Assembly (NCBI GenBank): GCA_947454715.1
Contig: CANGMZ010000026.1
Location: forward strand, 1 to 34,003
Source of the DNA: Chitinophagaceae bacterium
Lineage (GTDB): Bacteria; Bacteroidota; Bacteroidia; Chitinophagales; Chitinophagaceae
DNA length: 34,003 nucleotides
Reading direction: 5' to 3'
This document shows positions 2,032 to 32,218 of this stretch, one piece after another; within the stretch, counting starts at the first letter, position 1, and every line of letters begins with the position of its first letter. The position numbers and the translations under genes are program-made. The notes below the pieces were generated by a model, which ran no database searches, had not been told where the DNA came from, and saw only the letters and a list, made by a program, of their open reading frames with translations.

Positions 2032-3423
2032 TTATGCAGTTATATGCATCAGTGCTTTGATGTCGGCCATTATACTATGTGCAACATTGTTTGCACTAGC
2101 TTCATCTTTACTTTCAGAATATACACGGATTATAGGCTCAGTGTTAGATGTGCGCAAATGCACCCAGTCTTTATCAAAGTCTATACGCAGGCCATCTTCC
2201 GTATTGATAGGCTGTGCAGCATATTTTTTCTTGATTTCTTCAAATATCGCCTTTACATTAGTGTCTTCAGGAAGGTCAATTTTATTTTTAGAGATAAAGT
2301 AGTTAGGGTAGGTGTTACGGAGTGTGCGAACAGACAATCCTGTTTTTGCCAGGTGAGTAAGGAACAATGCTATGCCAATGAGCGCATCACGACCGTAATG
2401 CAATTCAGGGACAATCACTCCGCCGTTTCCTTCACCACCTATTACTGCGTTCACTTCCTTCATTTTCTTCACTACATTCACTTCGCCAACTGCACTTGGA
2501 AAATATTGACCGCCATGCTTCTCTGTAACATCGCGTAGCGCGCGTGTAGAGGATAGATTAGAAACGGTATTACCCTTTTTATTACCCAGCATATAATCCG
2601 CTATAGCCACCAAGGTATATTCTTCACCGAATAATGAGCCGTCTTCACATACGAAACATAATCTGTCAACATCGGGGTCAACAGCAATGCCAAGCGTTGC
2701 TTTCTTTTCTTTTACAGTATTGCAAAGATCAACAAGGTGCTCGGGAAGTGGCTCCGGATTGTGTGCAAAATGGCCTGTAACTTCTTCATTAATAACGGTA
2801 ATGTCATTTACGCCTAAGGCACGTAAAAGTGGTGGTACAGATAACGACCCTGTAGAGTTAACCGAATCTAACACTGCGCTGTAGTTCATAGCCTTTATAG
2901 CAGCTACATCAACCATAGGGTGAGCCAATATGATGTCTATATGTTTTTGTATGTAACTATCATCATTTCTTTGTGTGCCAATATGGTCTATTTCTGCATA
3001 GTTGGGCTCTGTTTTTTCCGCATAGTCCAGTATCCATTGACCTTCAGCTGCATTAAGAAATTCACCTTCATGGTTGAGCAGTTTAAGTGCATTCCATTGT
3101 TTAGGATTATGACTCGCAGTGAGAATGATTCCGCCACCGGCGTTTTCCATTTTTACTGCCATTTCAACAGTTGGTGTAGTGCTTAATCCTAGGTCTACTA
3201 CATCGCAACCAATACCTTGTAATGTTGCTACGACCAGATCTCGAACCATACCACCAGAAATGCGACCATCGCGACCAATGATAATTTTTTTATTTGTTCC
3301 CTGACTTGCAACCCATGCACCATAGGCTGTAGTGAATTTAACTACATCGATAGGGGTTAAGCTCTTACCTGGTGTGCCTCCTATTGTGCCCCTGATTCCT
3401 GAGATTGATTTGATTAATGCCAT
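2032..3423 (-). CDS. glmM: Phosphoglucosamine mutase (GlmM-type phosphohexomutase)
   Basis: A 463-residue alpha-D-phosphohexomutase. The four signature regions are in order: the phosphoserine loop TASHNP (Ser104), the metal-binding loop DPDVDR (Asp249, Asp251, Asp253), the sugar-binding loop GGEGNGG (Glu331) and the phosphate-binding RTSNTEP (from Arg424). The EGNGG form is that of the archaeal/Bacteroidota-type phosphoglucosamine mutases rather than the GEQSGH of proteobacterial GlmM. It should convert glucosamine-6-phosphate to glucosamine-1-phosphate for UDP-GlcNAc, peptidoglycan and LPS. Phosphomannomutase or phosphoglucomutase activity cannot be excluded from sequence alone. It leads a two-gene unit with the membrane protein, one base apart. 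The ATG at 3423 directly precedes the conserved ISGIRGTIGG motif, which fixes the start. Confidence 0.88.
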   Translation of the reverse strand: MALIKSISGIRGTIGGTPGKSLTPIDVVKFTTAYGAWVASQGTNKKIIIGRDGRISGGMVRDLVVATLQGIGCDVVDLGLSTTPTVEMAVKMENAGGGIILTASHNPKQWNALKLLNHEGEFLNAAEGQWILDYAEKTEPNYAEIDHIGTQRNDDSYIQKHIDIILAHPMVDVAAIKAMNYSAVLDSVNSTGSLSVPPLLRALGVNDITVINEEVTGHFAHNPEPLPEHLVDLCNTVKEKKATLGIAVDPDVDRLCFVCEDGSLFGEEYTLVAIADYMLGNKKGNTVSNLSSTRALRDVTEKHGGQYFPSAVGEVNVVKKMKEVNAVIGGEGNGGVIVPELHYGRDALIGIALFLTHLAKTGLSVRTLRNTYPNYFISKNKIDLPEDTNVKAIFEEIKKKYAAQPINTEDGLRIDFDKDWVHLRTSNTEPIIRVYSESKDEASANNVAHSIMADIKALMHITA

Positions 3424-11076: not shown

Positions 11077-14000
11077 ATGGTTTTATTGATACCTCCCTAT
11101 TTTTATAAACTGCTTAGGAACATTACATTACTTCTGGTGATATGGTGTTTCTGTGGCGTAACTTTTGCACAATCTCCTGTAATAACTTCAGTAGTGCCTG
11201 CAATTGCAAAAGTGGGAGACACAATAATAATTACCGGGAATAATTTTGATGCGATAGCAAATAATAATAATGTTTTTTTTGGTGCTACCAGGGGAACCGT
11301 ATTGACAGCAAGTGTTTCACAGCTCTCAGTGATTGTAGATACAGGTGCAACTTATGGTCCGGTATCTGTTTTGAATACTACAACTAGTCACATTGGGTAT
11401 CAAAATGGCATGTTTATGCCTACGTTTGAGAGTTCGTATTTTATGTTAGATACGATTAATTTGAAGCCTAGAGTTGCGTTAGTAACTGGTGTGCCTGGAA
11501 GTTTACCATATATAACCGTAATAAGCGATTTTGATGGTGATGGTAAACCAGATCTTGTAGTTAATAATAGAGCCACATCCCCAACACCTGGTAGTATTGT
11601 AATATATAGAAATGTAAGCGTTCCCGGGAGAATTGATGGGTCATCATTTTCTTTACCACCGCTTACTATAACAGTAGGTAATCAAGTAACAAATGTAAAT
11701 GTCGCTGACTTTAATGGAGATGGAAAGCCAGATATTGTTGCAACGGAATTGGGTGTTGGGAAAATTGCCATATTTGAAAATACATCAGTATCTGGTGGGA
11801 TTTCATTTGCATCTGCTGTTGAGATTTCTACCATCCCTATGGGAATTGCCCCTTATGTGTTAGGGATTGCTGATTTTGATAAGGATGGAAAACCTGATAT
11901 AGCAGTAACTTGTAGGGACTCTAATAATGTTGTTGTTTTTCACAACGACTGTACATTAGCAACGATAGCTTTTTCGTTCGCCGGGGCATTTAGTACGGGT
12001 ACTTATCCGATTGGTATTTGTACCGGTGATTTAGATGGCGATGGTTGGTCTGATATTGGTGTTGCTGATGATTCGTCATACTCGTTTTCAATTCTTAAAA
12101 ATATATCCTCAACTGGCACTATTGCGTTCAATCCAAGGGTAGCAGTATCTTCAAGTGGCACTCCTTCTGATATACATTTTTCAGATATTGATGGTGATAA
12201 TAAACTTGATGTGCTCATTTCGAATACAAATAACAATACACTGGCACTTTATAAAAATAATTGTCTACCAGGTAACATTGATGCTTCATCATTTGGTACT
12301 GCAGTTGAGTTCACAACAATGAATGGTGCTGCCGGATTCTCAATAGGTGATATGAATGGAGATGGAAAGCCAGATGTTGTTGTGGGAGATGCAAGTAGCG
12401 GCGGTTATCTATCTATGTTTAGAAACACATCCGTTCCTGGAGCATTTTCCTCATCTACATTGTCACCAAAATCTGATTATCAAATTGCAGGTGCTTTATT
12501 TAGCACAACAATTGGTGATCTTGATGGGGATAGATATCCGGATATAATGGCTACAAACAATACTGGCAGTAGTATTTTTATTCTCAGAAATTACCCAATA
12601 CCTCCGCTTGATACAATAGTAGGTCCTAAGGCAATTTGTTTTTCAAGTCCGTCAATTACACTTAGTGATACAGCGCCGGGTGGCTTTTTTACAATCAGTA
12701 ATAGTACATTGGCGAGTGTTACCAGTGCCGGATTATTCACGCCTCATTTACCTGGGTTAGATACAGTTTATTATTCCAAGGTAGCTGGTGGTGACACCAA
12801 CACAGTTAGGCGGATAATCAGAATCGACTCTACGCCACGTGTGTCTTTTGTAAATGGTACTGCAGCAGTTTGTATAGGCAATACAATTACGCTTACAGAT
12901 TCAGTGAGTGGTGGTTTTTGGCATACAGTAAATGCGGCTATAGCAACGGTAGGTCTTACAGGCATGGTTACAGGTGTGTCTGCAGATACGGTGTCTATTG
13001 CCTATTCTTTTACAAATACCTGTGGAACTGATACTAAAGTCAAAAATATTGCTGTCAATACAACGCCGATAGTTGGTCCAATAACCGGAGCTACTTCTGT
13101 TTGTGGTCTTATATCAACCACATTAGTTGACACAACTGCGGGAGGTTCTTGGTCAACTGCTAATGCTTCAATTGCTACTGTGAACAACATTACAGGTTTT
13201 GTAACAGGAGTTACCTCGGGTGCTTCTACAACAATAACATATTCTAAAGCTAATTCCTGCGGAACAACAGTAATGTCAACACCTTTTACCGTGAATATTG
13301 CGCCTGTAGCAGGTACAATAACAGGAGGTAATAACGTTTGTCATGGTGCTTCACTAACACTGAGTAATGCAAGCCCCGGAGGTGTATGGAGTAGTAGTGA
13401 TACAACTGTTGCAACGGTTACAGGAGGTGTTGTTGCAGGTGTTACTTCCGGCAATGTTATAATAACATATACCGTAACCAATAGTTGTGGTTCCGCAAGC
13501 GATACACAAATGGTTTCGGTGAATCCGTTGCCAAGTGCGGGTACTATAATAGGACTAAACTCAGTATGTGCAGGTAGTAATATTACGTTAGGGTCTACTG
13601 TAATTGGTGGCACATGGTCAAGTGGCACTACAAGTGTGGCAACCGTTAATGCATCAGGAATGGTGCACGGTATTGCTGCAGGAAATACCATAATAACGTA
13701 CACAAACACGAATGGCTGCGGTACAGCAATAGATACACAAATGGTTGCTGTTAATCCACTGCCGGTTGCAGGTACAATTGTTGGTACTGCAAGCGTATGT
13801 GTTGGACAAGTAATAACACTTACTGATACAATAACCGGGGGTGTTTGGATTAGTAGCAATACTGCTAAAGCAACAGTTAGTGGTGGCATTGTTCATGGGG
13901 TTGCTTCCGGAAGTACTATTATATCTTACACAGTAAGTAATGGTTGCGGCAGCGTGAACGCAACGCAGTCTGTGATTATTAATCCGCTGCCGGTTTCCGG

Positions 14001-17000
14001 CGTTATATCAGGGCTAGCGTCTGATGTATGTGCAGGCAGTAATATAACATTGAGTACTACAGGAACTGGTGGCGTATGGAGTAGTAATGCAACAGGTGTG
14101 GCAACTGTTAGTGTTTCCGGTCTGGTACATGGAGTTGCTGCGGGCAATGCAATTATATCTTATGCTGTTACGAATGGTTGTGGAACAGCAACTGATACAC
14201 AGATGATTACCGTTAATCCACTGCCTACAGTTGCGATTGCTACCGGTGTAGCCAGTGTCTGTGTAGGGCAAGTGACAACACTGTCAGATACAACAACAGG
14301 AGGTGTATGGGGTAGTAGTAACAACAGTATTGCTACAGTGAGTGGTGGACTTGTTCATGGGGTTTTAGCAGGGACGGTAATTATCTCCTACACTATAACT
14401 ACAGGTAGTTGCGGTAGTGTCAGTGATACTATGCTGGTTACAGTAAATCCACAACCAAATGCGGGCGCTGTAACAGGTACAGCAATGGTTTGTACAGGTG
14501 CAGATATTACACTAGGTAATGCCGTAACAACAGGTGTATGGAACAGTAGTAATACATCTACTGCTACTGTTAATAGTGCCGGCTTAGTGCATGGTATTGC
14601 TACAGGTAGTACTATCATATCCTATAGTGTTACGAACGTTTGTGGAACGGCAATAGATACCCAATTAATTACAATAAATCTTTCGCCTAATGCCGGAGTA
14701 GTTACAGGTGTGGGCATTGTTTGTGCAGGGGCAATTATTACGTTGGCAGATACAGCAGCAGGTGGTACATGGAGCAGTAGTAATAATGCAACAGCCACAG
14801 TGTCGGGTGGTGTTGTTACGGGTGTTGCCGGAGGTAATGTTATTATATCGTATACCGTGTCTGATATTTGTGGTAGTGCTACTGATACAATGATGGTACA
14901 TGTGAATCCATTGCCTGTTGCGGGGAGTATAATTGGTCTTACAACTGTTTGCACAGGTTCTGCTATTACATTGGGTGCAACTGTAATTGGCGGAAATTGG
15001 TCTGCAACAAATGGTCTCGCTAATGTTGTGGGTGGAGTAGTAACGGGTGTAGCAACAGGTACTGATACCATTGTATATACTGTGAGCAATGGTTGCGGAA
15101 GTGCATCTGTTTCGCACGTGATAAATGTTCAGTTAACGCCAGTTGCAGGAATAATTACAGGAGTAGATTCTGTTTGTACAGGAGCTGTAGTTACATTGAC
15201 AGATACGGTAACCGGTGGGACTTGGAGTGTGGCTAATGCGCATGCAACGGTAATAGGCGGTGTTGTTACCGGAGCGAGTGCAGGAATAGACACAATTAAG
15301 TATACAGTAGCCAATAGTTGCGGAACCGTAATCGCGAGTCATGCAATAATAGTTAACACTTTGCCTGATGCAGGTATAATCAATGGTTTTAATAGTGTGT
15401 GTGCCGGTACAGACATTACACTTACAGATGCAGTAACCGGTGGTATTTGGAGTGCCTCAAATGGAAGTGCTTCTGTAGTTGGTGGTGTAGTCTCAGGTAT
15501 TGTGAGTGGTACAGATACTATATTATATACAGTTACTAATACTTGTGGTGCTACAGCTGCAATCAAACATATACTCGTAAATAACTCCACTTTTGTAGAT
15601 TCTATATCTGGTGATTCAAGTGTTTGTCAGGCGCAAAGTATCACACTTGCTGATGCTGTAACCGGTGGTGTGTGGATTAGTGACAACATAGCTGTTGCTA
15701 CAATTGATACCAACGGTATAGTTACAGGTATAACAGGTGGTACAGCTAATATTTCTTATAGTGTAACGACAGTGTGTGGAACGGCAACTGCTACCCAACA
15801 AATAATTGTAAATCCATTACCGGTTGCGGGATCCATTACCGGTGCTACGAGTCTTTGCGTAGGTGCCTCAACGACATTGACTGATAGTGCCTCCGGAGGG
15901 GTGTGGTTAACTACAGGTATATCAACAAGCGTTGTATCTGGTGTTGTGACTGCAAATGCTCCGGGTACAGATACCATAAGCTATATAGTTACCAATGGAT
16001 GCGGTAATGATACTGTATTCAAATATATAACCGTTGCGCCATTGCCTGATACAGGCATAATCACAGGCCCACTAACAGTGTGTGCCGGAACCTCTGTTGC
16101 ACTTAATGATACTGCTATTGGTGGTGTTTGGAGTAGTAGTAATTCTTCTGTTGCTACTGTTAATGCCGCAGGTGTTGTTTTGGGGCTAAGTGCAGGAAAT
16201 ACTGTAATTAGTTATTTGGTAACAACAAGTTGCAGTAGTGCCGCAGCACATAAGTTGGTAACAGTCTACCCAAAACCAACATTAACCAGTTCATCTACAC
16301 CTACTCCTGTTTGTGATAGTATGCTTTTTTCTTATCTGCCTGCTTCGGGTGCATCAGGAGCATCATTTGTATGGACTCGTAATGCAGTAGCAGGTATTAA
16401 CAATCCAACATTGTCCGGCGTTGATAATGTTGCAGAGTATCTTGACAATACTACAGCCTCATCAATTAATGTAGTTTATAATTTCACGGTTACGGCCAAT
16501 GGTTGTGTTGACACATCAAAAGTTACGGTAAGGGTAAAGCCAGTTCCTCAACTGAGTAGTGTATTGTCTGAGTCTTTATGTGGTGGTGTGGTTTTTGATT
16601 ATTTCCCATTAAGTGCTACGACAGGTACTGCGTATACGTGGTCTCGTTCAGCGGTATCGGGTATTCTTCCTGCTACTTCTTCAGGGACGGGTTATATACA
16701 TGATAGTCTGATCAATAGCACAGGTAGTAATATTGGTGTTGTCTACAATATTAATTTATCAGCGGAGGATTGTAACGCTACTGAGCAGTTAAATATTATG
16801 GTTAGCCCGGGAGCACATCAACCTCATATCACAACCGCAGGCCCGTCATGGGTATGTGCCAATACATTGTACCAAAACTTTGGAACTGCAGCATTGCCTT
16901 ATACCGGAGAGCATTACACATGGTCTGCAGATGGCGCATCAATATGGGCTACAGGTGCAGGTGCACAAAACTGTTTAGTTAATTTTAATGCGCCGGTTAT

Positions 17001-17586
17001 GGCTTGGGTTTATTTGACTGCAACGCTTGCCTCTACCGGATGTTCTTTAAGAGATTCATTTGCAGTGTCTGTAGCTGCAAATGTTGCGGAAATACCGAGT
17101 GTGATTTATTTTAATGGTGAATTTATTTGTCAGCAAAGCAATGATTATACTTATCAGTGGGGATATGATGATGCAGTAACACTTGATTCTACAATATTAA
17201 CAGGGGAGACTAATCAGAATTATGTCAATGCTGCACCGGATCTTATTGGTAAGCTATATTGGGTGATAACAACGCACTTAGGTTGCAAGGAGAAAACTTA
17301 TTACAATGGTCCTGTAGCTATTTATAATGTGGCAAACGATGTGGCAATGGTTGGGCATTTATCACCTAACCCTAATACAGGTAACTTTAATTTCTTATTG
17401 TCTTCCGGTATTATAGAGCCTGTAAATATTGTAGTGACTGATTTGTTGGGGCAAGTAGTTAAAACATTACATACTAATACGAATAAAGAAGAGTTGATAT
17501 CTCTTGATGTGGCTTCAGGTATATATTTATTTAGAGCAACTACTGCTCACAGCAGTTATGAAGAAAAGATTGTTGTTGCAAGATAA
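11077..17586 (+). CDS. Giant secreted multidomain protein (IPT/TIG, FG-GAP propeller, 16 Ig-like, PKD-like, T9SS tail)
   Basis: A 2169-residue paralogue of the preceding protein. Order of parts: signal peptide (1 to about 31, ending TFA); IPT/TIG domain (about 34-108); seven FG-GAP/VCBS repeats (about 149-505; DFDGDGKPD, DFNGDGKPD, DMNGDGKPD and others); sixteen Ig-like domains of about 75 residues (about 510-1730), the first degenerate (GGFF instead of GGxW and lacking the second Cys); PKD-like modules with FVWTR and YTWSR cores (about 1731-2080); and a T9SS sorting domain (about 2094-2169: SPNPNTGNF, DLLGQVV, SGIYLF, ending VVAR). Export by the Por system and a role in adhesion or biofilm are inferred. 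The gene has its own upstream gap of 222 bp and its own terminator. The ATG at 11077 gives a good signal peptide; the next in-frame ATG would lose it. Confidence 0.92.
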   Translation: MVLLIPPYFYKLLRNITLLLVIWCFCGVTFAQSPVITSVVPAIAKVGDTIIITGNNFDAIANNNNVFFGATRGTVLTASVSQLSVIVDTGATYGPVSVLNTTTSHIGYQNGMFMPTFESSYFMLDTINLKPRVALVTGVPGSLPYITVISDFDGDGKPDLVVNNRATSPTPGSIVIYRNVSVPGRIDGSSFSLPPLTITVGNQVTNVNVADFNGDGKPDIVATELGVGKIAIFENTSVSGGISFASAVEISTIPMGIAPYVLGIADFDKDGKPDIAVTCRDSNNVVVFHNDCTLATIAFSFAGAFSTGTYPIGICTGDLDGDGWSDIGVADDSSYSFSILKNISSTGTIAFNPRVAVSSSGTPSDIHFSDIDGDNKLDVLISNTNNNTLALYKNNCLPGNIDASSFGTAVEFTTMNGAAGFSIGDMNGDGKPDVVVGDASSGGYLSMFRNTSVPGAFSSSTLSPKSDYQIAGALFSTTIGDLDGDRYPDIMATNNTGSSIFILRNYPIPPLDTIVGPKAICFSSPSITLSDTAPGGFFTISNSTLASVTSAGLFTPHLPGLDTVYYSKVAGGDTNTVRRIIRIDSTPRVSFVNGTAAVCIGNTITLTDSVSGGFWHTVNAAIATVGLTGMVTGVSADTVSIAYSFTNTCGTDTKVKNIAVNTTPIVGPITGATSVCGLISTTLVDTTAGGSWSTANASIATVNNITGFVTGVTSGASTTITYSKANSCGTTVMSTPFTVNIAPVAGTITGGNNVCHGASLTLSNASPGGVWSSSDTTVATVTGGVVAGVTSGNVIITYTVTNSCGSASDTQMVSVNPLPSAGTIIGLNSVCAGSNITLGSTVIGGTWSSGTTSVATVNASGMVHGIAAGNTIITYTNTNGCGTAIDTQMVAVNPLPVAGTIVGTASVCVGQVITLTDTITGGVWISSNTAKATVSGGIVHGVASGSTIISYTVSNGCGSVNATQSVIINPLPVSGVISGLASDVCAGSNITLSTTGTGGVWSSNATGVATVSVSGLVHGVAAGNAIISYAVTNGCGTATDTQMITVNPLPTVAIATGVASVCVGQVTTLSDTTTGGVWGSSNNSIATVSGGLVHGVLAGTVIISYTITTGSCGSVSDTMLVTVNPQPNAGAVTGTAMVCTGADITLGNAVTTGVWNSSNTSTATVNSAGLVHGIATGSTIISYSVTNVCGTAIDTQLITINLSPNAGVVTGVGIVCAGAIITLADTAAGGTWSSSNNATATVSGGVVTGVAGGNVIISYTVSDICGSATDTMMVHVNPLPVAGSIIGLTTVCTGSAITLGATVIGGNWSATNGLANVVGGVVTGVATGTDTIVYTVSNGCGSASVSHVINVQLTPVAGIITGVDSVCTGAVVTLTDTVTGGTWSVANAHATVIGGVVTGASAGIDTIKYTVANSCGTVIASHAIIVNTLPDAGIINGFNSVCAGTDITLTDAVTGGIWSASNGSASVVGGVVSGIVSGTDTILYTVTNTCGATAAIKHILVNNSTFVDSISGDSSVCQAQSITLADAVTGGVWISDNIAVATIDTNGIVTGITGGTANISYSVTTVCGTATATQQIIVNPLPVAGSITGATSLCVGASTTLTDSASGGVWLTTGISTSVVSGVVTANAPGTDTISYIVTNGCGNDTVFKYITVAPLPDTGIITGPLTVCAGTSVALNDTAIGGVWSSSNSSVATVNAAGVVLGLSAGNTVISYLVTTSCSSAAAHKLVTVYPKPTLTSSSTPTPVCDSMLFSYLPASGASGASFVWTRNAVAGINNPTLSGVDNVAEYLDNTTASSINVVYNFTVTANGCVDTSKVTVRVKPVPQLSSVLSESLCGGVVFDYFPLSATTGTAYTWSRSAVSGILPATSSGTGYIHDSLINSTGSNIGVVYNINLSAEDCNATEQLNIMVSPGAHQPHITTAGPSWVCANTLYQNFGTAALPYTGEHYTWSADGASIWATGAGAQNCLVNFNAPVMAWVYLTATLASTGCSLRDSFAVSVAANVAEIPSVIYFNGEFICQQSNDYTYQWGYDDAVTLDSTILTGETNQNYVNAAPDLIGKLYWVITTHLGCKEKTYYNGPVAIYNVANDVAMVGHLSPNPNTGNFNFLLSSGIIEPVNIVVTDLLGQVVKTLHTNTNKEELISLDVASGIYLFRATTAHSSYEEKIVVAR
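11521..12590 (+). repeat. Seven FG-GAP/VCBS repeats in the second giant protein
   Basis: Seven DxDGDGxxD-type motifs (first at residue 151, last at 481), the same number and spacing as in the upstream paralogue, consistent with a seven-bladed propeller. Some loops are altered, for instance DFDKDGKPD and DLDGDRYPD. Confidence 0.85.
12604..16262 (+). repeat. Array of sixteen Ig-like (Big_2-type) domains, about 228 bp each
   Basis: Sixteen tandem protein-level repeats, most linked by VNPLPVAG-like joints. Copies 4-10 alternate strictly between two subtypes; copies 11-13 form a third subtype with a shorter loop and GTDTI or GIDTI. Long antisense open frames here are a side effect of the repeat composition. 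Confidence 0.88.
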
Positions 17587-17735: not shown

Positions 17736-19466
<1,731 letters not shown>

Positions 19467-19748
19467 TTAAATGATCGCAAGGATATCACTTTCGCGCATA
19501 ATCAGGTAATCTGCACCTTCAAAAGCGATTTCAGTACCTGCATATTTACCATATAATACAGTGTCACCTGCTTTTACGGTCATTGGCTCATCTTTTTTAC
19601 CAGGACCCGCAGCTACAACTATTCCACGTTGTGGCTTTTCTTTCGCTGTATCAGGTATAATGATACCACCTGCAGTTTTTTCTTCAGCTGCAGCAGATTT
19701 TACGATAACCCTGTCATGGAGGGGAGTAATGTTAACGTTGTTAGCCAT
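19467..19748 (-). CDS. groS: Co-chaperonin GroES (10 kDa)
   Basis: A 93-residue co-chaperonin of usual length. The N-terminal PLHDRVIVK strand, the mobile loop around [12 protein letters not shown] (residues about 22-33) that contacts GroEL, and the [11 protein letters not shown] strand are typical. It caps the GroEL ring in an ATP-dependent way. First gene of the groES-groEL operon. I looked for a CIRCE inverted repeat (TTAGCACTC / GAGTGCTAA) upstream and saw none, so HrcA control is not supported by the sequence. Confidence 0.97.
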
Positions 19749-20076
19749 TTTTATGTTTTTTAAGTTGTTAAACGATTTTGTAATAATGCAATAATCATCT
19801 TTTATGCCAAAGCCCCTTTTCGGTCATTTTTGCAGAGCAGCATGTTCTATACTGTCAGTTGCACACTTACGAACGCTAACTTTGCACATTATGAAAAACG
19901 ATATTGTTATTTTGGCAGACAATATTCCGTTTTTTAAAGTGAATATTCAACTACTATAATATGGAGCTTTGGGCTGATGCATTATCGTTGGTATTAAAAA
20001 GATTTTAAACTATTTTTTGGTTTGTTGATATTTATCTATATCTTTGTGTTTTATTAATCTTTTTATTTCAAAAACA
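19749..20076. other. Intergenic region between groES and the cold-shock gene
   Basis: A 328-base divergent gap. It should contain the groES promoter (not identified) and holds a good promoter for the cold-shock gene at 20016-20046. Between them are a promoter-like box TAACTTTG at 19877-19884 and two tiny tandem open frames on the plus strand: 19891-19959 (22 codons, beginning MKNDIVILADNIPFF) and 19961-20008 (15 codons, beginning MELWADAL), one base apart. I cannot tell whether these are translated or are gene remnants. Confidence 0.5.
20016..20046 (+). promoter_or_regulatory. Consensus Bacteroidota promoter of the cold-shock gene
   Basis: TTTG at 20016-20019, a spacer of exactly 19 nt and TATCTTTG at 20039-20046 match the -33/-7 consensus in full. 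Transcription should begin near 20052, leaving a leader of about 25 nt before the ATG at 20077. Confidence 0.75.
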
Positions 20077-20268
20077 ATGCAAGAAGGTACAGTTAAATTT
20101 TTCAATGAAGCAAAAGGCTTCGGTTTCATCACTCCATCAAACGGTGGCCCAGACATCTTCGTTCACGTTTCAGGTCTTTATGACGAGATTCGTGAGAACA
20201 ACAAGGTGTCTTATGAAGTTCAAAATGGCAAAAAAGGTTTGAATGCAGTTAATGTAAAAGTTATCTAA
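20077..20268 (+). CDS. Cold-shock domain protein (CspA family)
   Basis: A 63-residue single cold-shock domain. It has RNP1 KGFGFI (residues 13-18) and RNP2 DIFVHV (26-31) on the MQEGTVKFFNEAKGFGFI framework, so it binds single-stranded RNA or DNA in the cytoplasm. The open frame extends upstream to a TTG at 20044, but that TTG is inside the promoter -7 box; ATG at 20077 is therefore the start, and it gives the standard family N-terminus. A strong terminator follows at 20292-20320, so it is monocistronic. Whether it is cold-induced cannot be told. Confidence 0.95.
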   Translation: MQEGTVKFFNEAKGFGFITPSNGGPDIFVHVSGLYDEIRENNKVSYEVQNGKKGLNAVNVKVI

Positions 20269-20291
20269 TCTTATTCATACTAATCATTTGG

Positions 20292-20320
20292 AAAGCCCTC
20301 GATTTATCGAGGGCTTTTTT
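20292..20320 (+). terminator. Rho-independent terminator of the cold-shock gene
   Basis: AAAGCCCTCGA pairs with TCGAGGGCTTT around a 4-nt loop and is followed by a T-run (to 20320), 24 nt past the stop codon. Confidence 0.92.
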
Positions 20321-20438
20321 ACGTTTAGTACCTGCTGCACCCTAGGCGATTGACGAAAGTTCAATCCGCATTTTTCTAAAATATCAGATGTGCATTTATT
20401 ACCGATTTCAATAAAGCCAATTACGCTCTGCTAATTCA

Positions 20439-20446
20439 TACCTTTG
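20439..20446 (+). promoter_or_regulatory. -7 box TACCTTTG of the phosphopantetheinyl transferase gene
   Basis: A full TAnnTTTG match ends only 4 nt before the ATG at 20451, so the transcript would start at or next to the start codon. No good TTTG element lies 19 nt upstream. Confidence 0.5.
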
Positions 20447-20450
20447 TACT

Positions 20451-21077
20451 ATGCCGTTACTCAATGAATGGAATATAGGTGATCATGGCCGCGGGGCTAT
20501 ATGGAAAGTGGAGGAAGAAGAAGCATTTTTTGCAGACCATACCAAGATTTTATCTGATATCAAGAATGATAAGCGGCGCATAGAGCATCTTGCGGGCCGT
20601 TATTTGCTTACACATTTAGAGGCTGAATTCCCTTTACATGCTATTAGTAAAGATGAACATGATAAGCCGCGTATCCCCGGTAATGAATTTCAGTTCTCTA
20701 TTTCGCACTCATGGCCATATATAGCTGTTGCGGTTGATCCGGTAGATGAGGCTGGTATAGATATTCAAACCTGGCATCCACGAATTGCAGACATAAAACA
20801 TAAATTTCTCTCCGAAGAGGAGCAAGACACCATGTGTCATGACCCAAAGTATTTTACATTGGCGTGGTGTGCAAAAGAGGCTGTATATAAATGGAATGGC
20901 AGGAGAGGTGTTGATTTCAAAGAGCAGTTGCCGATAGCCTATTTTAACACTGTACTTGATATTAATATTTATATACACTTGAATAAAATGCCGGAAATGG
21001 TATTTACTAAAAACTTCATAACACCAGATTATGCTTGTTCTTACGTTGAAAATGTACAGCCATGGGCAATATATTAA
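20451..21077 (+). CDS. 4'-phosphopantetheinyl transferase superfamily protein (Sfp-like)
   Basis: A 208-residue protein with the two core motifs of the family: AGIDIQ (Asp104, Mg/CoA binding) and WCAKEAVYK (Glu143, Lys147), spaced as in Sfp-type enzymes. An upstream FSISHS motif (82-87) corresponds to the CoA-contacting SHS. The enzyme transfers 4'-phosphopantetheine from CoA to a serine of carrier proteins (ACP or PCP). No polyketide or peptide synthase is in the window, so it may be the general activating enzyme of the cell (inference). The ATG at 20451 is the first in-frame start after the -7 box and gives the full domain. Confidence 0.88.
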   Translation: MPLLNEWNIGDHGRGAIWKVEEEEAFFADHTKILSDIKNDKRRIEHLAGRYLLTHLEAEFPLHAISKDEHDKPRIPGNEFQFSISHSWPYIAVAVDPVDEAGIDIQTWHPRIADIKHKFLSEEEQDTMCHDPKYFTLAWCAKEAVYKWNGRRGVDFKEQLPIAYFNTVLDINIYIHLNKMPEMVFTKNFITPDYACSYVENVQPWAIY

Positions 21078-21152
21078 TACAATACAATAAAATTAAATGT
21101 TTAATTTTTTCTGAAATTTTCATAAAAAATTTACTTTTTATCAGAATATCTC

Positions 21153-21160
21153 TAGATTTG
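21153..21160 (+). promoter_or_regulatory. -7 box TAGATTTG of the glutamine synthetase gene
   Basis: TAnnTTTG match ending 17 nt before the ATG at 21178. The region 19 nt upstream holds TTTA, a 3/4 match to the -33 element. Confidence 0.45.
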
Positions 21161-21177
21161 CGTAAAATTTAATATCT

Positions 21178-23370
21178 ATGGCGAATTTACGTTTTCAGGC
21201 TTTGCAGTCGTTGCAGAGCGAAGAGAAAATAGTTTCCGGCTACAGTGAGAAAAAAATCACTACAATGTTCGGGAGTAACGTATTTACGGGTCGCACAATG
21301 CGCGAATCCCTGAGCGATGAGGCATACAAGAGCCTTATGAATTCAGCAAAATCTGGTCAGCGTATCGACCGTCGCATAGCAGATCAAGTAGCTGTAGGTA
21401 TGAAGGCTTGGGCAGAGTCTCGCGGAGTTACTCACTTCACACACTGGTTTCAGCCACTTACGGGTACTACTGCAGAAAAACATGATTCTTTTTTTACAAT
21501 AAAAAGCGATGGCAGTGCTATCGAACTTTTTGATGGCGAAGCATTGATACAGCAGGAGCCTGATGCATCGAGCTTTCCTAACGGTGGTATTCGTGCAACA
21601 TTTGAAGCACGCGGATATACTGCCTGGGATCCATCTTCACCTGCATTCATTATGGAAGCAGGTTCAGGTAAAACACTTTGCATTCCAACAATTTTTATAG
21701 CCTACAATGGTGAGTCACTCGACCATAAAGCACCATTGCTGAAGTCGATCGCTGCTCTAGATAAAGCAGCTGTTGATGTTTGCCATTATTTTGATAAGAA
21801 CGTAACAAAAGTTACTGCAACATTAGGTTGGGAGCAGGAATATTTTGTAGTAGATGAAGCATTGGCTAATGCACGTCCAGATTTGATGATGTGCGGTCGC
21901 ACGCTTTTAGGTCATGGTCCTGCAAAGGGGCAGCAGTTAGAAGATCATTACTTTGGTTCTATTCCTGAGCGTGTATATGCATTCATGCAAGATTTTGAAC
22001 AAGAGTCTTACAAGTTAGGTATTCCATTGCGTACTCGCCACAATGAGGTTGCGCCATCTCAGTTTGAGTGTGCGCCAATGTTTGAAGAGGTGAACATAGC
22101 TGTAGATCATAACACGCTGTTAATGGATGTTATGACTAAGGTGGCAAAGCGTCATAAGCTAAAGGCATTGATGCATGAAAAGCCATTTGCCGGTGTAAAC
22201 GGAAGTGGTAAGCACAATAACTGGAGCCTTGCTACTGACACAGGTGTAAACTTGTTATCACCGGGTAAAACTCCACGCACCAACCTCATGTTCCTTACCT
22301 TCTTTGTAAACACAATCAAGGCGGTACATGATCATGCTGATCTATTACGCGGTGCAATTGCATCTGCAAATAATGATCATCGTTTGGGTGCAAATGAAGC
22401 CCCTCCGGCTATTATTTCTGTTTACTTGGGTAAGTATTTGACTCAGGTATTAGATGAAGTAGAATCAAGAGTGAAAGAGAAATTCACAGAACAGGATGAA
22501 GTTATCTTGAAGTTGGATATTCATAAACAGTTGCCTGAGGTATTGATGGACAATACGGATCGTAATCGCACAAGTCCTTTTGCATTCACAGGTAATAAGT
22601 TTGAATTCCGTGCAGTAGGGTCTTCTGCTAACTGCGGCTCACCAATGGTAGTGTTGAATACTATTATGACCGATACCTTGAAGCAGTTTAAGAAAGAGGT
22701 AGATGGATTGATAGAGAAGGGTGAGAAGAAAGAAATTGCAGTTTTGCAGATCTTGCGTAGCTATATCACTGATTCTAAGAAGATTAGATTTGAAGGGGAT
22801 AATTACAGTGCCGAATGGGCAGAAGAAGCAGCTCGTCGTGGATTGAATAATTTCAAGACTACACCTGAAGCCTTGGATGCCTATATCACAGACAAGTCTA
22901 AGCAGTTGTTTTATGATAACGGTATTTTCAGTAAGCGTGAATTGGAAGCGCGTCATGAGATCATGCTCGAAGATTATGTAAAGAAAGTACAGATTGAGGC
23001 ACGTATTATCGGCTATCTATCAACAAACCACATATTACCTGCTGCTATTGAATATCAAAACACAATGATTCAGAACGTAAATGGTCTGAAGGGCTTGGGT
23101 CTTGATGAAAGCGGTTATAAAGCGCAGCTTAATTTGGTTAAGGTGATCAGCAACCACATTCAAAACATCAACGATAATGTAGAAGCAATGATACAGGCTC
23201 GTAAAGATGCCAATAATGAAGAGGATATGCATAAGCGTGCTTTAATGTATTGCCATAAGGTAAAACCATTCTTCGACAGTATCCGTTATCACGCAGATAA
23301 GCTTGAGCTAATAGTTGATGATAAACTTTGGCCACTGCCAAAGTATCGTGAATTGCTGTTCTTGAGATAA
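21178..23370 (+). CDS. glnN: Glutamine synthetase type III
   Basis: A 730-residue glutamine synthetase of the large GSIII class, typical of Bacteroidota and some cyanobacteria. Visible landmarks: the N-terminal FGSNVFTGRTMRE region; FPNGGIRATFEARGYTAWDP specific to type III; the catalytic-core WEQEYF (about 218-223); the ATP/glutamate site KPFAGVNGSGKHNNWS (about 335-350); and the FEFRAVGSS strand (Glu476, Arg478). It makes glutamine from glutamate and ammonia with ATP in the cytoplasm. The tyrosine adenylylation site of type I enzymes is not part of this class. The gene stands alone between its own promoter box and a very strong terminator, with no glnB or amtB neighbour. The ATG at 21178 is fixed by the close upstream -7 box. 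Confidence 0.95.
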   Translation: MANLRFQALQSLQSEEKIVSGYSEKKITTMFGSNVFTGRTMRESLSDEAYKSLMNSAKSGQRIDRRIADQVAVGMKAWAESRGVTHFTHWFQPLTGTTAEKHDSFFTIKSDGSAIELFDGEALIQQEPDASSFPNGGIRATFEARGYTAWDPSSPAFIMEAGSGKTLCIPTIFIAYNGESLDHKAPLLKSIAALDKAAVDVCHYFDKNVTKVTATLGWEQEYFVVDEALANARPDLMMCGRTLLGHGPAKGQQLEDHYFGSIPERVYAFMQDFEQESYKLGIPLRTRHNEVAPSQFECAPMFEEVNIAVDHNTLLMDVMTKVAKRHKLKALMHEKPFAGVNGSGKHNNWSLATDTGVNLLSPGKTPRTNLMFLTFFVNTIKAVHDHADLLRGAIASANNDHRLGANEAPPAIISVYLGKYLTQVLDEVESRVKEKFTEQDEVILKLDIHKQLPEVLMDNTDRNRTSPFAFTGNKFEFRAVGSSANCGSPMVVLNTIMTDTLKQFKKEVDGLIEKGEKKEIAVLQILRSYITDSKKIRFEGDNYSAEWAEEAARRGLNNFKTTPEALDAYITDKSKQLFYDNGIFSKRELEARHEIMLEDYVKKVQIEARIIGYLSTNHILPAAIEYQNTMIQNVNGLKGLGLDESGYKAQLNLVKVISNHIQNINDNVEAMIQARKDANNEEDMHKRALMYCHKVKPFFDSIRYHADKLELIVDDKLWPLPKYRELLFLR

Positions 23371-23391
23371 TCGTAAATATATCTTGAAAGT

Positions 23392-23431
23392 TAAATGATG
23401 AAGCCCCCGATTTTGGGGGCTTCATCATTTA
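23392..23431 (+). terminator. Strong rho-independent terminator after glutamine synthetase
   Basis: A 17-bp stem (core GATGAAGCCCCC / GGGGGCTTCATC) with a 6-nt loop, 21 nt past the stop codon. A/T tracts flank both sides, so it may work in both directions. Confidence 0.9.
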
Positions 23432-23691
23432 TTGTATTTATTGACTAAGGAGTACATATATTGAATTTGTCTTGTAGAATTGCTTGTGTTTTTGTGTCCC
23501 CCATTTGTATCATATATTGATGGTCAAGACCTTCAGAGTGTTTCAGAGAGGCTATTGGCCTGGTGTCCTGTTCAGTGCAGAATACGATTTTAGTATAAAA
23601 ATATTTTTTTAGTTATTAACTAAGTGTAATGTCTGTAGTCAATTCATATATTTACGGAATAGGTGATTACCTTGCAATTGAATTATAATTT
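23432..23691. other. Rest of the intergenic region upstream of the GH92 gene
   Basis: With the terminator, this makes a 321-bp gap. On the minus strand 23612-23445 is a stop-free frame of 55 codons with protein-like composition but no ATG, GTG or TTG before codon 34 (ATG at 23513, leaving 22 codons). On the plus strand TATATTTA (23647-23654) is an imperfect -7 box for the GH92 gene. No certain gene. Confidence 0.4.
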
Positions 23692-25929
23692 ATGGCTAGT
23701 TTATTAAAGAGGGCAAGTCTTTTACTTGCAGTAGCATTTAGTACTCAGGTACAGGCGCAAAATCTCACTAAATATATTGATCCGATGATTGGTACCGGTG
23801 GTCATGGGCATACTTATCCGGGTGCAACAGTGCCATTTGGTATGGTGCAGCTAAGTCCGGATAATGGCGATGAGGGTTGGGACTGGTGCAGTGGATATAA
23901 TTATAGCAGTCCGGCAATAGCTGGTTTTAGCCACTTGCATTTAAGTGGTACAGGTTGTGGTGACTGGACAGATATCTCAGTAATGCCCAATACCAGTCTC
24001 ATCAATGATACGTTCAGGTTTTACAAAGTGCCTTTTAGCCATAAGAATGAGAAAGCGTCAGCCGGTTTTTACAGTGTGCAATTAGACAATGGTATTAAAG
24101 TGTCACTGACCACAACTGCAAGATGTGGTTTTCATAAGTATGAATTCCCTAAGGGAAGTACTCCTTTTGTGCGTTTCCAGCTCAACTACATGATTAATTG
24201 GGATAGTACAGTAAAAACCAGAATATTGAAGCAGGATGATTCCACAATAGTAGGGTACAGATATTCTTATGGTTGGGCAAATGTGCAACGCGTATATTTT
24301 GCTGCTCGCACTTCTGCACCTATAAAGCAAATGCATATTTTTAATAGTGAGAACCATAGTAAAATAAATCAGGAAGAGGAGAATGGTAAACAGTACAATG
24401 GTGAACTTGAGTTTGCCGATTTGAATGGGAAACCATTATTGATGAAAGTTGCACTATCCTCTGTTAGTTATGAGAAAGCCTTAGAAGCGCTTGGGGAGAT
24501 AAGGGGTTGGAATTTTGATTCTTACAAGGCTGCTGCAGAAGGTTTATGGGAAAAGGAGCTGCAGAAGATGCAGGTAAAGACCAACGATGAACATTTGAAG
24601 CGGATTTTCTATACTGCTATATATCACACTTGTATGGCCCCAGTATTATTTTCAGATGCAGATGGCGACTATCAAAATGCGAAAGGTAATGTGCAAAAAA
24701 TGAAGAAAGGGCAACGATACACCGTATTCTCTTTATGGGATACGTTCCGTGGGCTTAATCCTTTGTTTACGCTTACGCAGCCACAGCGTAACATAGATAT
24801 CCTGAATAGTATGCTGGCATTTTACGATGAGAATGGTTTATTGCCGGTATGGGATCTAAGTACATTTGAGACCAACTGTATGAGTGGTTATCATGCAGTT
24901 CCTGTTTTGGCCGATGCGGTATTAAAAGATACGAAGGGGCTTGATGCAGTGCATGTGTATGAGGCTATGTTGGCAAGTGCTAACCAAAAAGAAAGAGGCA
25001 CTCCTGATTACATAAAGTATGGTTATTTGCCTTCAGATAAAGGTTCTTTCAGCGTAACTCTAACTGTAGAATACGCTTTTGATGACTGGTGTATTGCGCA
25101 GGTTGCAAAAAAACTAGGCAAGACAGCTGACTATATTAAGTTCATGAAACGTGCTGATTCTTGGAAGCAATTATTTGACCAGCAGACAGGTTTTATGAGA
25201 GGTAAAAAAGCAGATGGCTCTTGGGTCACTCCTTTTGATCCTTATTTTGCATCAACTGACTGGAAGACATCTAATTATGAAGAAGGTAATGCGTGGCAAT
25301 ACACATTTTTTGTTCCTCATGATGTGATTGGATTAACACAGGCATTTGGTAGCAAGGCTGCTTTCATTAATAAATTAGATTCTCTGTTTACGGTCAATTC
25401 AAATATTAAGGGAGAGTCTGCACCACCGGATATGAGTGGGCTTATAGGTCAGTATGCGCATGGAAATGAACCAAGTCATCACATTGCATATATGTATAGT
25501 TTTGTAGGTGAACCATGGAAAACCGGTAAACAAGTGCGCAATATCATAGAAACCATGTATCATGACAAGCCGGAAGGTTATGCAGGCAATGAAGATTGCG
25601 GACAGATGAGTGCCTGGGCTGTTTGGAGTATGATGGGTTTCTTTCCGGCTAATCCTGCAAATGGAGAATATGTATTTGGTAGCCCGGTTTTTGATCAAAT
25701 GAACCTGAAACTACCTTCAGGTAAAAATATGCTCATCATTGCTAAGAACAATAGTAAGAGCAATATATACATTCAGAGCATAAAACTAAATGGTAGGCCA
25801 TATAATAAGACTTATATTACCCATACAGATTTACTTAAGGGTGGTGTTATCGAGTTTACCATGGGGGCACAACCCAATAAAGCCTGGGGCGTAGATGCGG
25901 CAAGTTGGCCTGCATCGGCAAGTAAATAA
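23692..25929 (+). CDS. GH92 family glycosidase (alpha-mannosidase type), secreted
   Basis: A 745-residue glycoside hydrolase of family 92, of usual length. A signal peptide (about 1-22, ending QVQA) is followed by the family N-terminus YIDPMIGTGGHGHTYPGA and PFGMVQLSPDN. The catalytic region has HGNEPSHHIAYMY with the general acid Glu593, and GNEDCGQMSAW with Asp635 as the likely base. GH92 enzymes are calcium-dependent exo-acting inverting alpha-mannosidases that trim N-glycan or mannan chains; linkage preference cannot be read here. It probably acts in the periplasm or at the cell surface. No SusC/SusD or other glycosidase is adjacent, so it is not in an obvious polysaccharide-use locus. 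The ATG at 23692 gives a full signal peptide. Confidence 0.94.
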   Translation: MASLLKRASLLLAVAFSTQVQAQNLTKYIDPMIGTGGHGHTYPGATVPFGMVQLSPDNGDEGWDWCSGYNYSSPAIAGFSHLHLSGTGCGDWTDISVMPNTSLINDTFRFYKVPFSHKNEKASAGFYSVQLDNGIKVSLTTTARCGFHKYEFPKGSTPFVRFQLNYMINWDSTVKTRILKQDDSTIVGYRYSYGWANVQRVYFAARTSAPIKQMHIFNSENHSKINQEEENGKQYNGELEFADLNGKPLLMKVALSSVSYEKALEALGEIRGWNFDSYKAAAEGLWEKELQKMQVKTNDEHLKRIFYTAIYHTCMAPVLFSDADGDYQNAKGNVQKMKKGQRYTVFSLWDTFRGLNPLFTLTQPQRNIDILNSMLAFYDENGLLPVWDLSTFETNCMSGYHAVPVLADAVLKDTKGLDAVHVYEAMLASANQKERGTPDYIKYGYLPSDKGSFSVTLTVEYAFDDWCIAQVAKKLGKTADYIKFMKRADSWKQLFDQQTGFMRGKKADGSWVTPFDPYFASTDWKTSNYEEGNAWQYTFFVPHDVIGLTQAFGSKAAFINKLDSLFTVNSNIKGESAPPDMSGLIGQYAHGNEPSHHIAYMYSFVGEPWKTGKQVRNIIETMYHDKPEGYAGNEDCGQMSAWAVWSMMGFFPANPANGEYVFGSPVFDQMNLKLPSGKNMLIIAKNNSKSNIYIQSIKLNGRPYNKTYITHTDLLKGGVIEFTMGAQPNKAWGVDAASWPASASK

Positions 25930-25950
25930 AGAGTTTTTGTAGATTTAAGT

Positions 25951-25978
25951 AATGGCTATCACATTCGTGGTAGCCATT
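25951..25978. terminator. Hairpin between convergent GH92 and CBM9-like genes
   Basis: A 12-bp stem AATGGCTATCAC / GTGGTAGCCATT (one T-G pair) with loop ATTC, 21 nt past the GH92 stop and 2 nt from the stop of the opposite gene. No good T-run on either side; a shared, weak bidirectional terminator is inferred. Confidence 0.6.
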
Positions 25979-25980
25979 GC

Positions 25981-26853
25981 TCATTTATAGCTGAAACGAA
26001 CAGAATGCCAGATGTGTACATTTTTGATAAGACGTTCACGGTCTGCAGCAATATCTACCGGAGGGGTGTAATCGTCGTCGTGTTCAGGTCGTAATTCTTT
26101 TCCTTTGTGTTCGTTTTGTATACTGTTGTCAGTTTGGTTGTGCATGGAAGCTATGTCTGTTGTGGCTATCGTAGTCGGATATGCGGGCATGTCTATTTCA
26201 GATAGCCCTGCCATATAAAAGCATACATTCATTTTTCTGTTTTGGTCATTGCTATCAATTTGTCTTTTGTAGAAGGCAGAAAAAGGAATGGCAATTTCCC
26301 AAACTGTTTCATTGAAATCATTGACGCCTGCTCCTATAATAATTCCTGCCGGGTTTTGAATGCTACCGTTATTGTCTCTTTTGAATCCTTTTAATGTAAT
26401 GCTCGCTATAGGGTAGTTGACAACTGAAGAGTGCTTTCTTCTTGGTGCTTTTCTTGTTGTGTCTGTATAAGAAGCCATACTATTTGTAGGTTCGTCATCT
26501 TCTTCGTTATCAGGCGCAGGTTTGCTCATAAATGCAGTTAGTGCAATTGAGTCTGTTTTCTTTCCATTGGTATCAATATAAATTGTGAAACCACCTCTCT
26601 CCAGTTTTCTGGCACTTACTGCATCGCTTGTTTTTAATGTTATAAAAAGTGTGTTTCTATTATTTGCAAATGCGTACTGTACTTTGTTGTCTTTATCTAC
26701 AAATGGATAGGGTAGTTGCCAGTCATTATTGTTGCCGTCAATATTAATATTGCTGCTTATCCACTGACTGTTAGGTGGCAATGCATTTTTTGTTGCCATG
26801 CAAGAAAGCAGCTGAAATGATAATAGCGCAGTTATGGCAACAATAAATCTCAT
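25981..26853 (-). CDS. Lipoprotein with CBM9-like (DOMON-type) domain
   Basis: A 290-residue lipoprotein: signal with lipobox L-L-S-C at Cys18. The next part, with INIDGNNNDWQ, then FVDKDNKVQYAFANN and LFITLKTSD, is the usual start of carbohydrate-binding family 9-like domains. The beta-rich core continues to about residue 215 (ETVWEIAIPFSAF), interrupted near residues 110-140 by a low-complexity Asp/Glu and Lys/Arg-rich insert. The C-terminal 60 residues are hydrophilic (His/Asp-rich). It converges on the GH92 gene. A sugar or haem ligand is possible for this fold, but no residue pattern settles it. The role is unknown. Confidence 0.78.
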   Translation of the reverse strand: MRFIVAITALLSFQLLSCMATKNALPPNSQWISSNINIDGNNNDWQLPYPFVDKDNKVQYAFANNRNTLFITLKTSDAVSARKLERGGFTIYIDTNGKKTDSIALTAFMSKPAPDNEEDDEPTNSMASYTDTTRKAPRRKHSSVVNYPIASITLKGFKRDNNGSIQNPAGIIIGAGVNDFNETVWEIAIPFSAFYKRQIDSNDQNRKMNVCFYMAGLSEIDMPAYPTTIATTDIASMHNQTDNSIQNEHKGKELRPEHDDDYTPPVDIAADRERLIKNVHIWHSVRFSYK

Positions 26854-27119
26854 GAATTGTAAAATAACGATGTTTTCATAAAACGAATGAAGGTAATTGA
26901 ATGTTATTCATCGCTTCAATTTTAACCTTTGCAATTCAGGGAGGGAATTCGAACGCAATCTGATTGATAGGAAATAGATCTATTGAAAACCATATTATAA
27001 CAATTGTATGTATTTTATTGATTGTTAATGGGGTGTGAATAAAATTCATTAAAAATTCACACAAAACATTTTGTTATTTAGTTGTTAACGATTAAATTCG
27101 TGTTATAATTATTTTGTGT
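26854..27119. other. Divergent intergenic region
   Basis: A 266-bp gap with promoters for both flanking genes inferred. At 26931-26957 the minus strand reads GTTCGAATTCCCTCCCTG, like the T-loop and 3' end of a serine-type tRNA, but no T-stem can pair and no other tRNA part is present. A 20-codon plus-strand frame at 26901-26963 overlaps it and is probably chance. The end of the gap is very AT-rich. Confidence 0.4.
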
Positions 27120-27578
27120 ATGGCTTCAGGATTCAATAAAAAAGATAAAAGACGCGGCCTGCTTAATGAGTTAATTAAGTCTCCAAAGCAGGTAAGGCCG
27201 ATTTTGTCTAAAAGCTTGGTAGAGAATTGTCTTATTGTAGCCCCATATAGATATATCTGCAGTACTGTAGAGGAGATTGTTTTCAGCAATGTGTCTTTTT
27301 GTAGTGATTTTTTGTTGCTTTCTATTGCAGAAAATAAATTAATTATTATTGAAAATTGCATATTTCATGGTGAAATGACAATTAATTGTCTGAAGAGTGC
27401 AAGGGTTATTGTTCGCAATTGCCAATTCAAAACTCCGATGAATATGATAAATCTAAAGCAGGATATGCTGGAAATGAACGAAATGGAATTGACGGCAGAT
27501 GATACCTTGGCTGCAATCGTAGCGGAAACAACTTTCCTATCTAAAATTTCTACTCAGGATAGAATTATCCTTAACTAA
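27120..27578 (+). CDS. Small beta-solenoid-like protein, unknown function
   Basis: A 152-residue protein with a basic N-terminus (KKDKRRG) and no signal peptide. From about residue 40 to 140 it shows rungs of 21-22 residues that line up at an Asn followed by a buried residue: SNVSF, ENCIF, RNCQF, MNEME. This is what right-handed beta-helix or bactofilin-like folds look like, but there is no family match I can name. Cys residues recur on the same face. The frame could start at a TTG at 27114, but ATG at 27120 is preferred. It is followed at once by the long hairpin at 27584-27644. Cytoplasmic location is inferred. Confidence 0.7.
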   Translation: MASGFNKKDKRRGLLNELIKSPKQVRPILSKSLVENCLIVAPYRYICSTVEEIVFSNVSFCSDFLLLSIAENKLIIIENCIFHGEMTINCLKSARVIVRNCQFKTPMNMINLKQDMLEMNEMELTADDTLAAIVAETTFLSKISTQDRIILN

Positions 27579-27583
27579 GATAC

Positions 27584-27644
27584 TCTGCTATTGCATTACG
27601 CAGGAATGTTCGTGTAACAAGATTCCTGAGTGTGCAATAGCAGA
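27584..27644. other. Long imperfect hairpin (61 bp palindrome)
   Basis: An outer 12-bp stem TCTGCTATTGCA / TGCAATAGCAGA (27584-27595 with 27633-27644), three further pairs, one mismatch, then an inner stem CAGGAAT / ATTCCTG (27601-27607 with 27622-27628) and a 14-nt loop. It begins 5 nt after a stop codon but has no T-run on either strand, so a classical terminator is not certain. Confidence 0.6.
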
Positions 27645-27671
27645 ACCTAATTTATGCAATTTACTGCATTC

Positions 27672-27700
27672 TTGTGCTTATAGAATTTGCAATACCTTTG
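27672..27700 (+). promoter_or_regulatory. Promoter of the RlmK-type methyltransferase gene
   Basis: TTG at 27672-27674, an 18-nt spacer and TACCTTTG at 27693-27700 fit the Bacteroidota -33/-7 pattern. Start of transcription near 27706, about 12 nt before the TTG start codon. Confidence 0.6.
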
Positions 27701-27717
27701 CAGTCTAATTCAGACAA

Positions 27718-28683: not shown

Positions 28684-28717
28684 TTGATTGGTAGTCAATT
28701 AGCAATTTTTCAAGAGT

Positions 28718-30433: not shown

Positions 30434-30459
30434 ACTGTTGATGGTAGCTATTTAGGCGA

Positions 30460-31389: not shown

Positions 31390-31406
31390 AGTTTAATTTA
31401 ATGCAG

Positions 31407-32196: not shown

Positions 32197-32218
32197 TTCA
32201 GGCTAAGTGAACTTATAT

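Follow-up and report, generated by a model that had tools for sequence, protein, structure and literature searches.

Proteins with tandem domains have been studied with respect to how their repeats expand. The two-domain unit has been reported as the commonest one for repeat expansion generally, with duplications often located centrally in the array (Bjorklund, Ekman and Elofsson 2006, PMC1553488). On bacterial surfaces, stalks whose length is set by the number of tandem domains have been described as Periscope Proteins (PMC8201768), and a giant Bacteroidota protein exported by the type IX secretion system (T9SS), GhpA of Aureispira, is represented in the PDB (9flp and others; its hooks are described in PMC11205867). 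The gene considered here is located in a window of 34,003 nucleotides, the whole stretch of DNA analysed, which is part of contig C26 (CANGMZ010000026.1) in the draft genome of a freshwater Chitinophagaceae bacterium (G000, assembly GCA_947454715.1, 230 contigs). Its open reading frame (ORF; 11077-17586, plus strand) specifies P0001, a giant surface protein of 2169 aa with N-terminal FG-GAP repeats, 16 immunoglobulin (Ig)-like domains of 73 to 79 residues related to Big_2, and a C-terminal region with a T9SS sorting domain. As judged from sequence comparisons, the stalk formed by these domains very probably lengthens and shortens mainly by two neighbouring domains at a time, about 153 residues or 459 bp.

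An orthologous gene was found in four sister species, represented by Flavipsychrobacter stenotrophus RB1R16 (G004), which belongs to the same genus as the window genome, and by the genomes G005, G006, and G010. In G004, G005, and G006 it is adjoined by the same upstream neighbour; in G010 contig ends split it into two parts, for which 17 and 3 domains were listed. The orthologues differ by whole pairs of domains, the totals being 16 in the window, 18 in G006, 18 in G005, 20 in G004, and 20 in G010. One type of domain, designated X, carries a signature composed of DTQ, four or five residues, L, S/T/A, P, D/N, and AG. In the same order of genomes, this signature is present once (domain 9 of the window), once, twice, three times, and three times, and none of the other genes in the survey described below (707 non-redundant ORFs) contained it. 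Every X precedes a domain nearer to a second type, Y, than to X, and the last X-Y pair is followed by a tail of six domains. The totals can be read as 3+5+2+6=16 for the window, 3+5+4+6=18 for G005, and 3+5+6+6=20 for G004 and G010, so that extra X-Y pairs account for the totals of 16, 18, and 20 with the exception of G006, which can be read as 3+7+2+6=18 with two extra domains outside of the X-Y region. From these comparisons, the unit varying between species is X-Y, domains 9-10 of the window (14473-14931), and not the whole run of domains 4-10. Identities of adjacent domains (lag 1) and of domains two apart (lag 2) in the middle block revealed a strong X/Y alternation in G004 (lag 2 60.8 versus lag 1 49.0, p 0.0001) and its close kin G010 (60.5 versus 49.2, p 0.0008), and lag 2 was also higher in G005 (53.6 versus 48.7, p 0.03).

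The domain arrays were aligned for the ten pairs of genomes with two gap costs, linear and affine, resulting in 20 array alignments. The last six domains pair one to one in all of them and the first three in 17. In the window, these blocks correspond to domains 11-16 (14932-16281), paired one to one in every alignment of the window to one of the four orthologues, and to domains 1-3 at the N-terminal end (12622-13320), paired in this way in seven of the eight alignments that involve the window. When G004 was aligned to G005, exactly domains 13-14 of G004 were left unmatched with both gap costs, the other 18 being paired at 55-81% identity. The same two domains of G004 are unmatched in G006, and domains 10-11 of G010 are unmatched in G005. 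For the window, affine costs gave gaps of four domains relative to G004 and G010 and of two domains relative to G005 and G006. Domain 4 (13321-13548) has its top match in domain 4 of G004 (63%) and, in G005, in domain 4 as well (64%, tied with domain 12), and the pairing of domains 4-8 of the window with domains 4-8 of G005 in order ranks second among 120.

To put these observations in a wider context, 308 sequences, the window and loci L001-L307 chosen by similarity to P0001, were surveyed. They contained 831 ORFs, 707 of which remained after removal of identical or contained ones, and 172 arrays with at least seven contiguous domains were obtained, domains with fewer than 50 aligned residues being dropped. 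Most of the genomes are draft metagenome-assembled genomes, in which near-identical copies can collapse. Lag 2 was the commonest best lag in the 172 arrays (90 arrays), followed by lags 4-8 (34 together), lag 1 (33), and lag 3 (15). Identity at lag 2 exceeded that at lag 1 in 119 arrays (sign test 5e-7); for single arrays, p values of at most 0.05 were reached by 43, about 9 being expected, and by 8 in the reverse direction. Clustering to 100 arrays did not alter the picture (lag 2 above lag 1 in 71; lag 2 the best in 50, lag 1 in 17), which also holds for 14 of 16 loci of the F. stenotrophus isolate and for 8 of 11 arrays in the window's own genome. The Big_9 family, used as a control for a preference special to the Big_2-like family, provided four arrays of at least seven domains with best lags of 3, 3, 1, and 1, too few for a decision. 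A far clearer superrepeat of two alternating domain types is present in L301 on contig C135 of G000, where a minus-strand ORF (989 aa) harbors a unit of 145 residues about five times (lag 1 43%, lag 2 89%; DNA self-identity 84% at offset 435).

Arrays with recent copies, defined by a pair at least 85% identical, display the preference as well: lag 2 exceeds lag 1 in 27 of 32, and the best lag is 2 in 24 and 1 in 4. The excess is weaker in arrays without close pairs (69 of 110 with a most similar pair below 70%, sign test 0.0097). Among 15 clustered arrays holding a pair of at least 80%, the dominant lag is 2 in ten, 1 in three, 3 in one, and 4 in one, and 11 contain no adjacent pair at this level, which fits single-domain duplications often being lost. 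Such figures could also be expected if selection acted against neighbours that look alike. A copied single domain would adjoin a near-identical one, domain-swapped misfolding could follow, and mostly duplications of pairs would survive. In general form this idea has been published (Wright et al. 2005, cited in PMC1553488; also PMC8201768 and PMC6863430), and the predominance of lag 2 over lag 1 in the 32 arrays mentioned is in its favour. However, adjacent domains resemble each other no less than domains three apart do. Since lag 1 exceeds lag 3 in 56 of the 100 clustered arrays, no avoidance beyond that produced by pair duplication is apparent. In addition, four of the 15 arrays do possess adjacent pairs at 87-98% (L278, L290, L201, and L054), and duplication of several domains, rather than selection, was considered the main cause of such trends by Bjorklund et al. 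(PMC1553488). Selection of this kind appears unlikely. A combined version, in which paired growth would be an adaptive rule of the family, is rather unlikely as well; here, stalk length would change by recombination as in Periscope Proteins, but in unlike pairs, so that DNA copies two apart could recombine, and neighbours would seldom become near-identical and would not misfold with each other.

A number of observations weigh against growth by pairs. With linear gap costs, the window is aligned to G004 with a one-domain and a three-domain gap, to G005 and G006 with single-domain gaps, and to G010 with two gaps of one domain and one of two. Because even gaps are obtained only with affine costs, it is the totals and the X signature that suggest steps of two domains in the lineage leading to the window. 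This signature was defined post hoc, with the sequences already seen, and domain 9 of the window is weakly X by mean identity (56 versus 54 to Y). The sample of five species is small and includes two close kin, and the middle block of G006 shows no excess of lag 2 (48.1 versus 48.4, p 0.54). One-domain units (L054, L278, and L290) exist in the same family, and clear three-domain units (best lag 3) were seen in L125, L131, and L269. Furthermore, G004 and G010 are 81-96% alike in 18 domains and 58% and 61% alike in domains 10 and 11, and the changed tract runs from inside domain 9 to about the start of domain 12 instead of forming a clean block of two domains. As far as the aligned sequences indicate, turnover between these two genomes does not respect domain borders exactly. 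In the corresponding DNA comparison of L061 and L064, identity drops to 44-79% at about residues 1172-1396 of the G004 protein, amid a stretch otherwise 80-95% identical, suggesting replacement or re-duplication. The last point is that the alternation within the window itself is a weak signal.

This alternation had been the starting point. A first-pass annotation of the window had proposed that Ig-like domains 4-10 of P0001 follow a strict B-A-B-A-B-A-B order recognisable by two short motifs, and that duplication in two-domain steps or a structural pair is behind it. For a closer look, the 16 domains were split and aligned, and pairwise identities were computed for protein and DNA. The array is real, and domains 4-10 span 13321-14931, about 24 bases downstream of the stretch originally given; within this span, domain 5 is at 13549-13779, domain 6 at 13780-14007, domain 7 at 14008-14241, domain 8 at 14242-14472, domain 9 at 14473-14703, and domain 10 at 14704-14931. 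The two motif classes can be recovered as well: column 34 of the domain model is deleted in domains 4, 6, 8, and 10 and filled in 5, 7, and 9, and column 59 is S in the former and T in the latter. Higher identity at lag 2 than at lag 1 had been predicted and was found for protein (58.6 versus 54.4%) and DNA (64.0 versus 57.9%). For DNA, each lag-2 identity (61.0-66.2) is above each lag-1 identity (55.3-60.1). A difference of this size was reached by 332 of the 5040 possible orders of the seven domains for protein and by 14 for DNA. By mean identity, the split into 4, 6, 8, 10 and 5, 7, 9 ranks second of 35 for protein and first for DNA.

Seven similar domains and two short motifs picked by eye might simply alternate by chance. 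Domains 4-10 are the best of ten possible seven-domain stretches in the array, and shuffling all 16 domains followed by rescanning gave p values of 0.45 (protein) and 0.033 (DNA). When the whole array of 16 is considered, protein identity at lag 2 is not above that at lag 1 (48.5 versus 48.7), and two other splits into four and three domains have seven fully diagnostic columns each, versus five for the proposed one. The term strict was thus an overstatement; once the choice of the stretch is corrected for, the protein signal vanishes and the DNA signal is modest. On the other hand, the DNA scan still yields the value of 0.033, the DNA tree pairs 5 with 7 and 6 with 8, and patterns of this kind are far stronger in orthologues and relatives, all of which speaks against chance; as the explanation of the alternation it is quite unlikely.

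The trees, which the first-pass annotation had also called for, agree with it in part. In the DNA tree, domains 5 and 7 are grouped (98/94, starred), as are 6 and 8 (86/91), and a group of 5, 7, and 9 is weak (82/78). A group of 4, 6, 8, and 10 is absent, yet not rejected (p-AU of the approximately unbiased test, 0.26). In the protein tree, 5+7 (80/21) and 5+7+9 (74/83) are found again, but domain 8 is placed with 10 (83/82) and no 6+8 pair is formed, a further point not in line with a simple pair history. One older duplication of two domains is nevertheless probable in the window, with domains 5-6 (13549-14007, 153 aa) as the probable first copy and domains 7-8 (14008-14472, 155 aa) as the probable second; DNA identity is 66% between 5 and 7 and 64% between 6 and 8. 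When windows of a quarter domain were compared, the closest partner switched along the domain, and because of these changes the domains look partly mosaic. Codon identity at shared residues in domains 4-10 is close to the mean of 43% for all pairs, and consequently silent sites look saturated and allow no estimate of age. Tandem Repeats Finder reported no array of domain length in the window or in two orthologues. Mean identities to X and Y place domains 5, 6, 7, and 10 nearer to Y, domain 10 clearly so (60 versus 48), and leave 4 and 8 undecided. Since domains 4-8 lean to Y or are undecided, the A and B classes of the first-pass annotation are not the X and Y types of the orthologues.

The second half of the original proposal, that the stalk is built from structural pairs, fared less well than the duplication history, which is supported, mainly by sequences of orthologues and relatives outside of the window. 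According to this idea, a specific A-B interface exists, only A-B units are functional, and selection maintains the alternation. The lag-2 excess in the 110 arrays lacking close pairs is compatible with it, and a structure model of four domains, computed from the window's segment together with 39 of 47 candidate segments, is confident (mean pLDDT 96.5, pTM 0.73) and would allow a fairly rigid rod. In a parity analysis, the second component (1.70) was above the maximum of 100 shuffles (1.49), and the first (1.79) was below it (2.04). An interface as the cause would lead one to expect alternation at identical columns in different arrays. The initial test for this was positive (mean z 0.53-0.85, controls -0.13 to 0.20); as it included end domains, edge columns, and gaps, a trimmed version took its place. 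After these had been removed, with 7 of 100 cluster representatives dropped for having fewer than six domains left, the shared part, given by columns learned from other arrays (mean z 0.35-0.60), was comparable to total parity (0.45) and only slightly above a shuffled control (0.20), and alternating columns are hardly shared. A small shared part across arrays is possible. In the window, the linkers show no visible alternation in sequence, and the one- and three-domain units of the family mentioned above also argue against obligatory pairs. A structural A-B pair has no clear support from these sequence data and is very unlikely to be the reason for the pattern.

Growth by pairs, the explanation favoured here, could proceed in the following way. 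Steps might occur by unequal homologous recombination or by replication slippage, involving copies at a distance of one unit. After the doubling of a pair, the best-matched partner would be found two domains away, and later exchanges would keep the register of two. The X-Y pair would have multiplied in this manner (one copy in the window, two in G005, three in both G004 and G010), and the weaker alternation of domains 4-8 would probably be the faded trace of an older duplication from 5-6 to 7-8. A specific A-B interface would not be required. Gene conversion was considered as the sole cause and rejected; it can raise lag-2 identity and leaves the changed copy number unexplained. Regarding function, the stalk may be an extended rod holding the FG-GAP head off the cell, and the number of pairs would then alter its reach.

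The remaining parts of P0001 fit the description of an exported surface protein. Six FG-GAP stretches were detected, the top-scoring one at residues 151-221 (11527-11739, plus strand; Pfam PF13517, E 2.4e-39), and the Big_2 profile (PF02368) matches seven stretches with 79.2 bits (curated cut-off 22.8). The T9SS type A sorting domain (Por_Secre_tail) at residues 2097-2167 (17365-17577, plus strand) is above the cut-offs of both PF18962 (34.8 bits, cut-off 27) and TIGR04183 (42.5 bits, cut-off 23). A hydrophobic N-terminus is visible in the sequence, and export is predicted. Directly upstream on the same strand, a paralogue with the same plan is located, P0002 (5665-10854, 1729 aa), which contains FG-GAP repeats, 10 detected Ig-like domains, and a T9SS tail. 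Its count of 10 detected Ig-like domains is the same in each of the four genomes compared (the window, L061, L062, and L063), and the downstream gene varies from 16 to 20. Other genes of the window (2032-3423 and 17736-33780) specify a member of the phosphoglucomutase family, the chaperonin Cpn60, a phosphopantetheinyl transferase, and a type III glutamine synthetase, as well as further ordinary neighbours, a GH92 glycosidase, a methyltransferase, and OstA/LptD-type and MlaD proteins.

With these results, an impression gained from motifs in a single gene has become a measured pattern, two-domain units being the commonest step in 172 Ig-stalk arrays of Bacteroidota, and the set of five orthologues lets the step size be counted. 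The arrays offer a natural system to ask why multi-domain proteins so often grow in pairs, be it by the mechanics of recombination, by an interface, or by avoidance of like neighbours. Among the titles listed from the open-licence literature of PubMed Central, none deals with two-domain units in the P0001 family, and Flavipsychrobacter is not mentioned in the 10 matches listed of 550 papers there.

Compared to known systems, P0001 shares features with several of them. Among solved structures, the Ig-like domains of GhpA are the strongest sequence match to domains 4-7 of the window (13321-14241; profile E 1.2e-135), and for the four-domain model GhpA has the highest TM-score (0.52-0.63 by query) of the 50 Foldseek matches listed, the first match by E-value being NUP210 (TM 0.28). 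Single-sequence matches to GhpA are restricted to Ig-like stretches with a strong composition bias. Stretches with independent E-values of at most 0.013 are confined to query residues 691-1337, residues 1445-1766 give a value of 120, and the C-terminal part of P0001 has no GhpA match at E 0.01; similarity thus does not extend beyond the Ig-like domains. Like other Big_2 stalk proteins with Por_Secre_tail, P0001 exceeds the curated cut-offs of its domain families, but copy number is much larger in G000, where Big_2 stalk domains are unusually many: 42 matches, versus one to five in each of the 37 further genomes with matches in a phylum sample of 118. Periscope Proteins are described as having tandem repeats at least 80% identical, a level not reached by the window's top adjacent pair (60.5%), and for P0001 the comparison was one of different species, between which length varies by unlike pairs. 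The approach of Bjorklund et al. (PMC1553488) relies on the same lag (autocorrelation) logic and led to the same kind of result. Added to it here are a bacterial Big_2-like family in which lag 2 is the commonest best lag, and orthologues that differ by pairs. Growth by pairs is already known in general, and the array of P0001 is a new, documented case of it.

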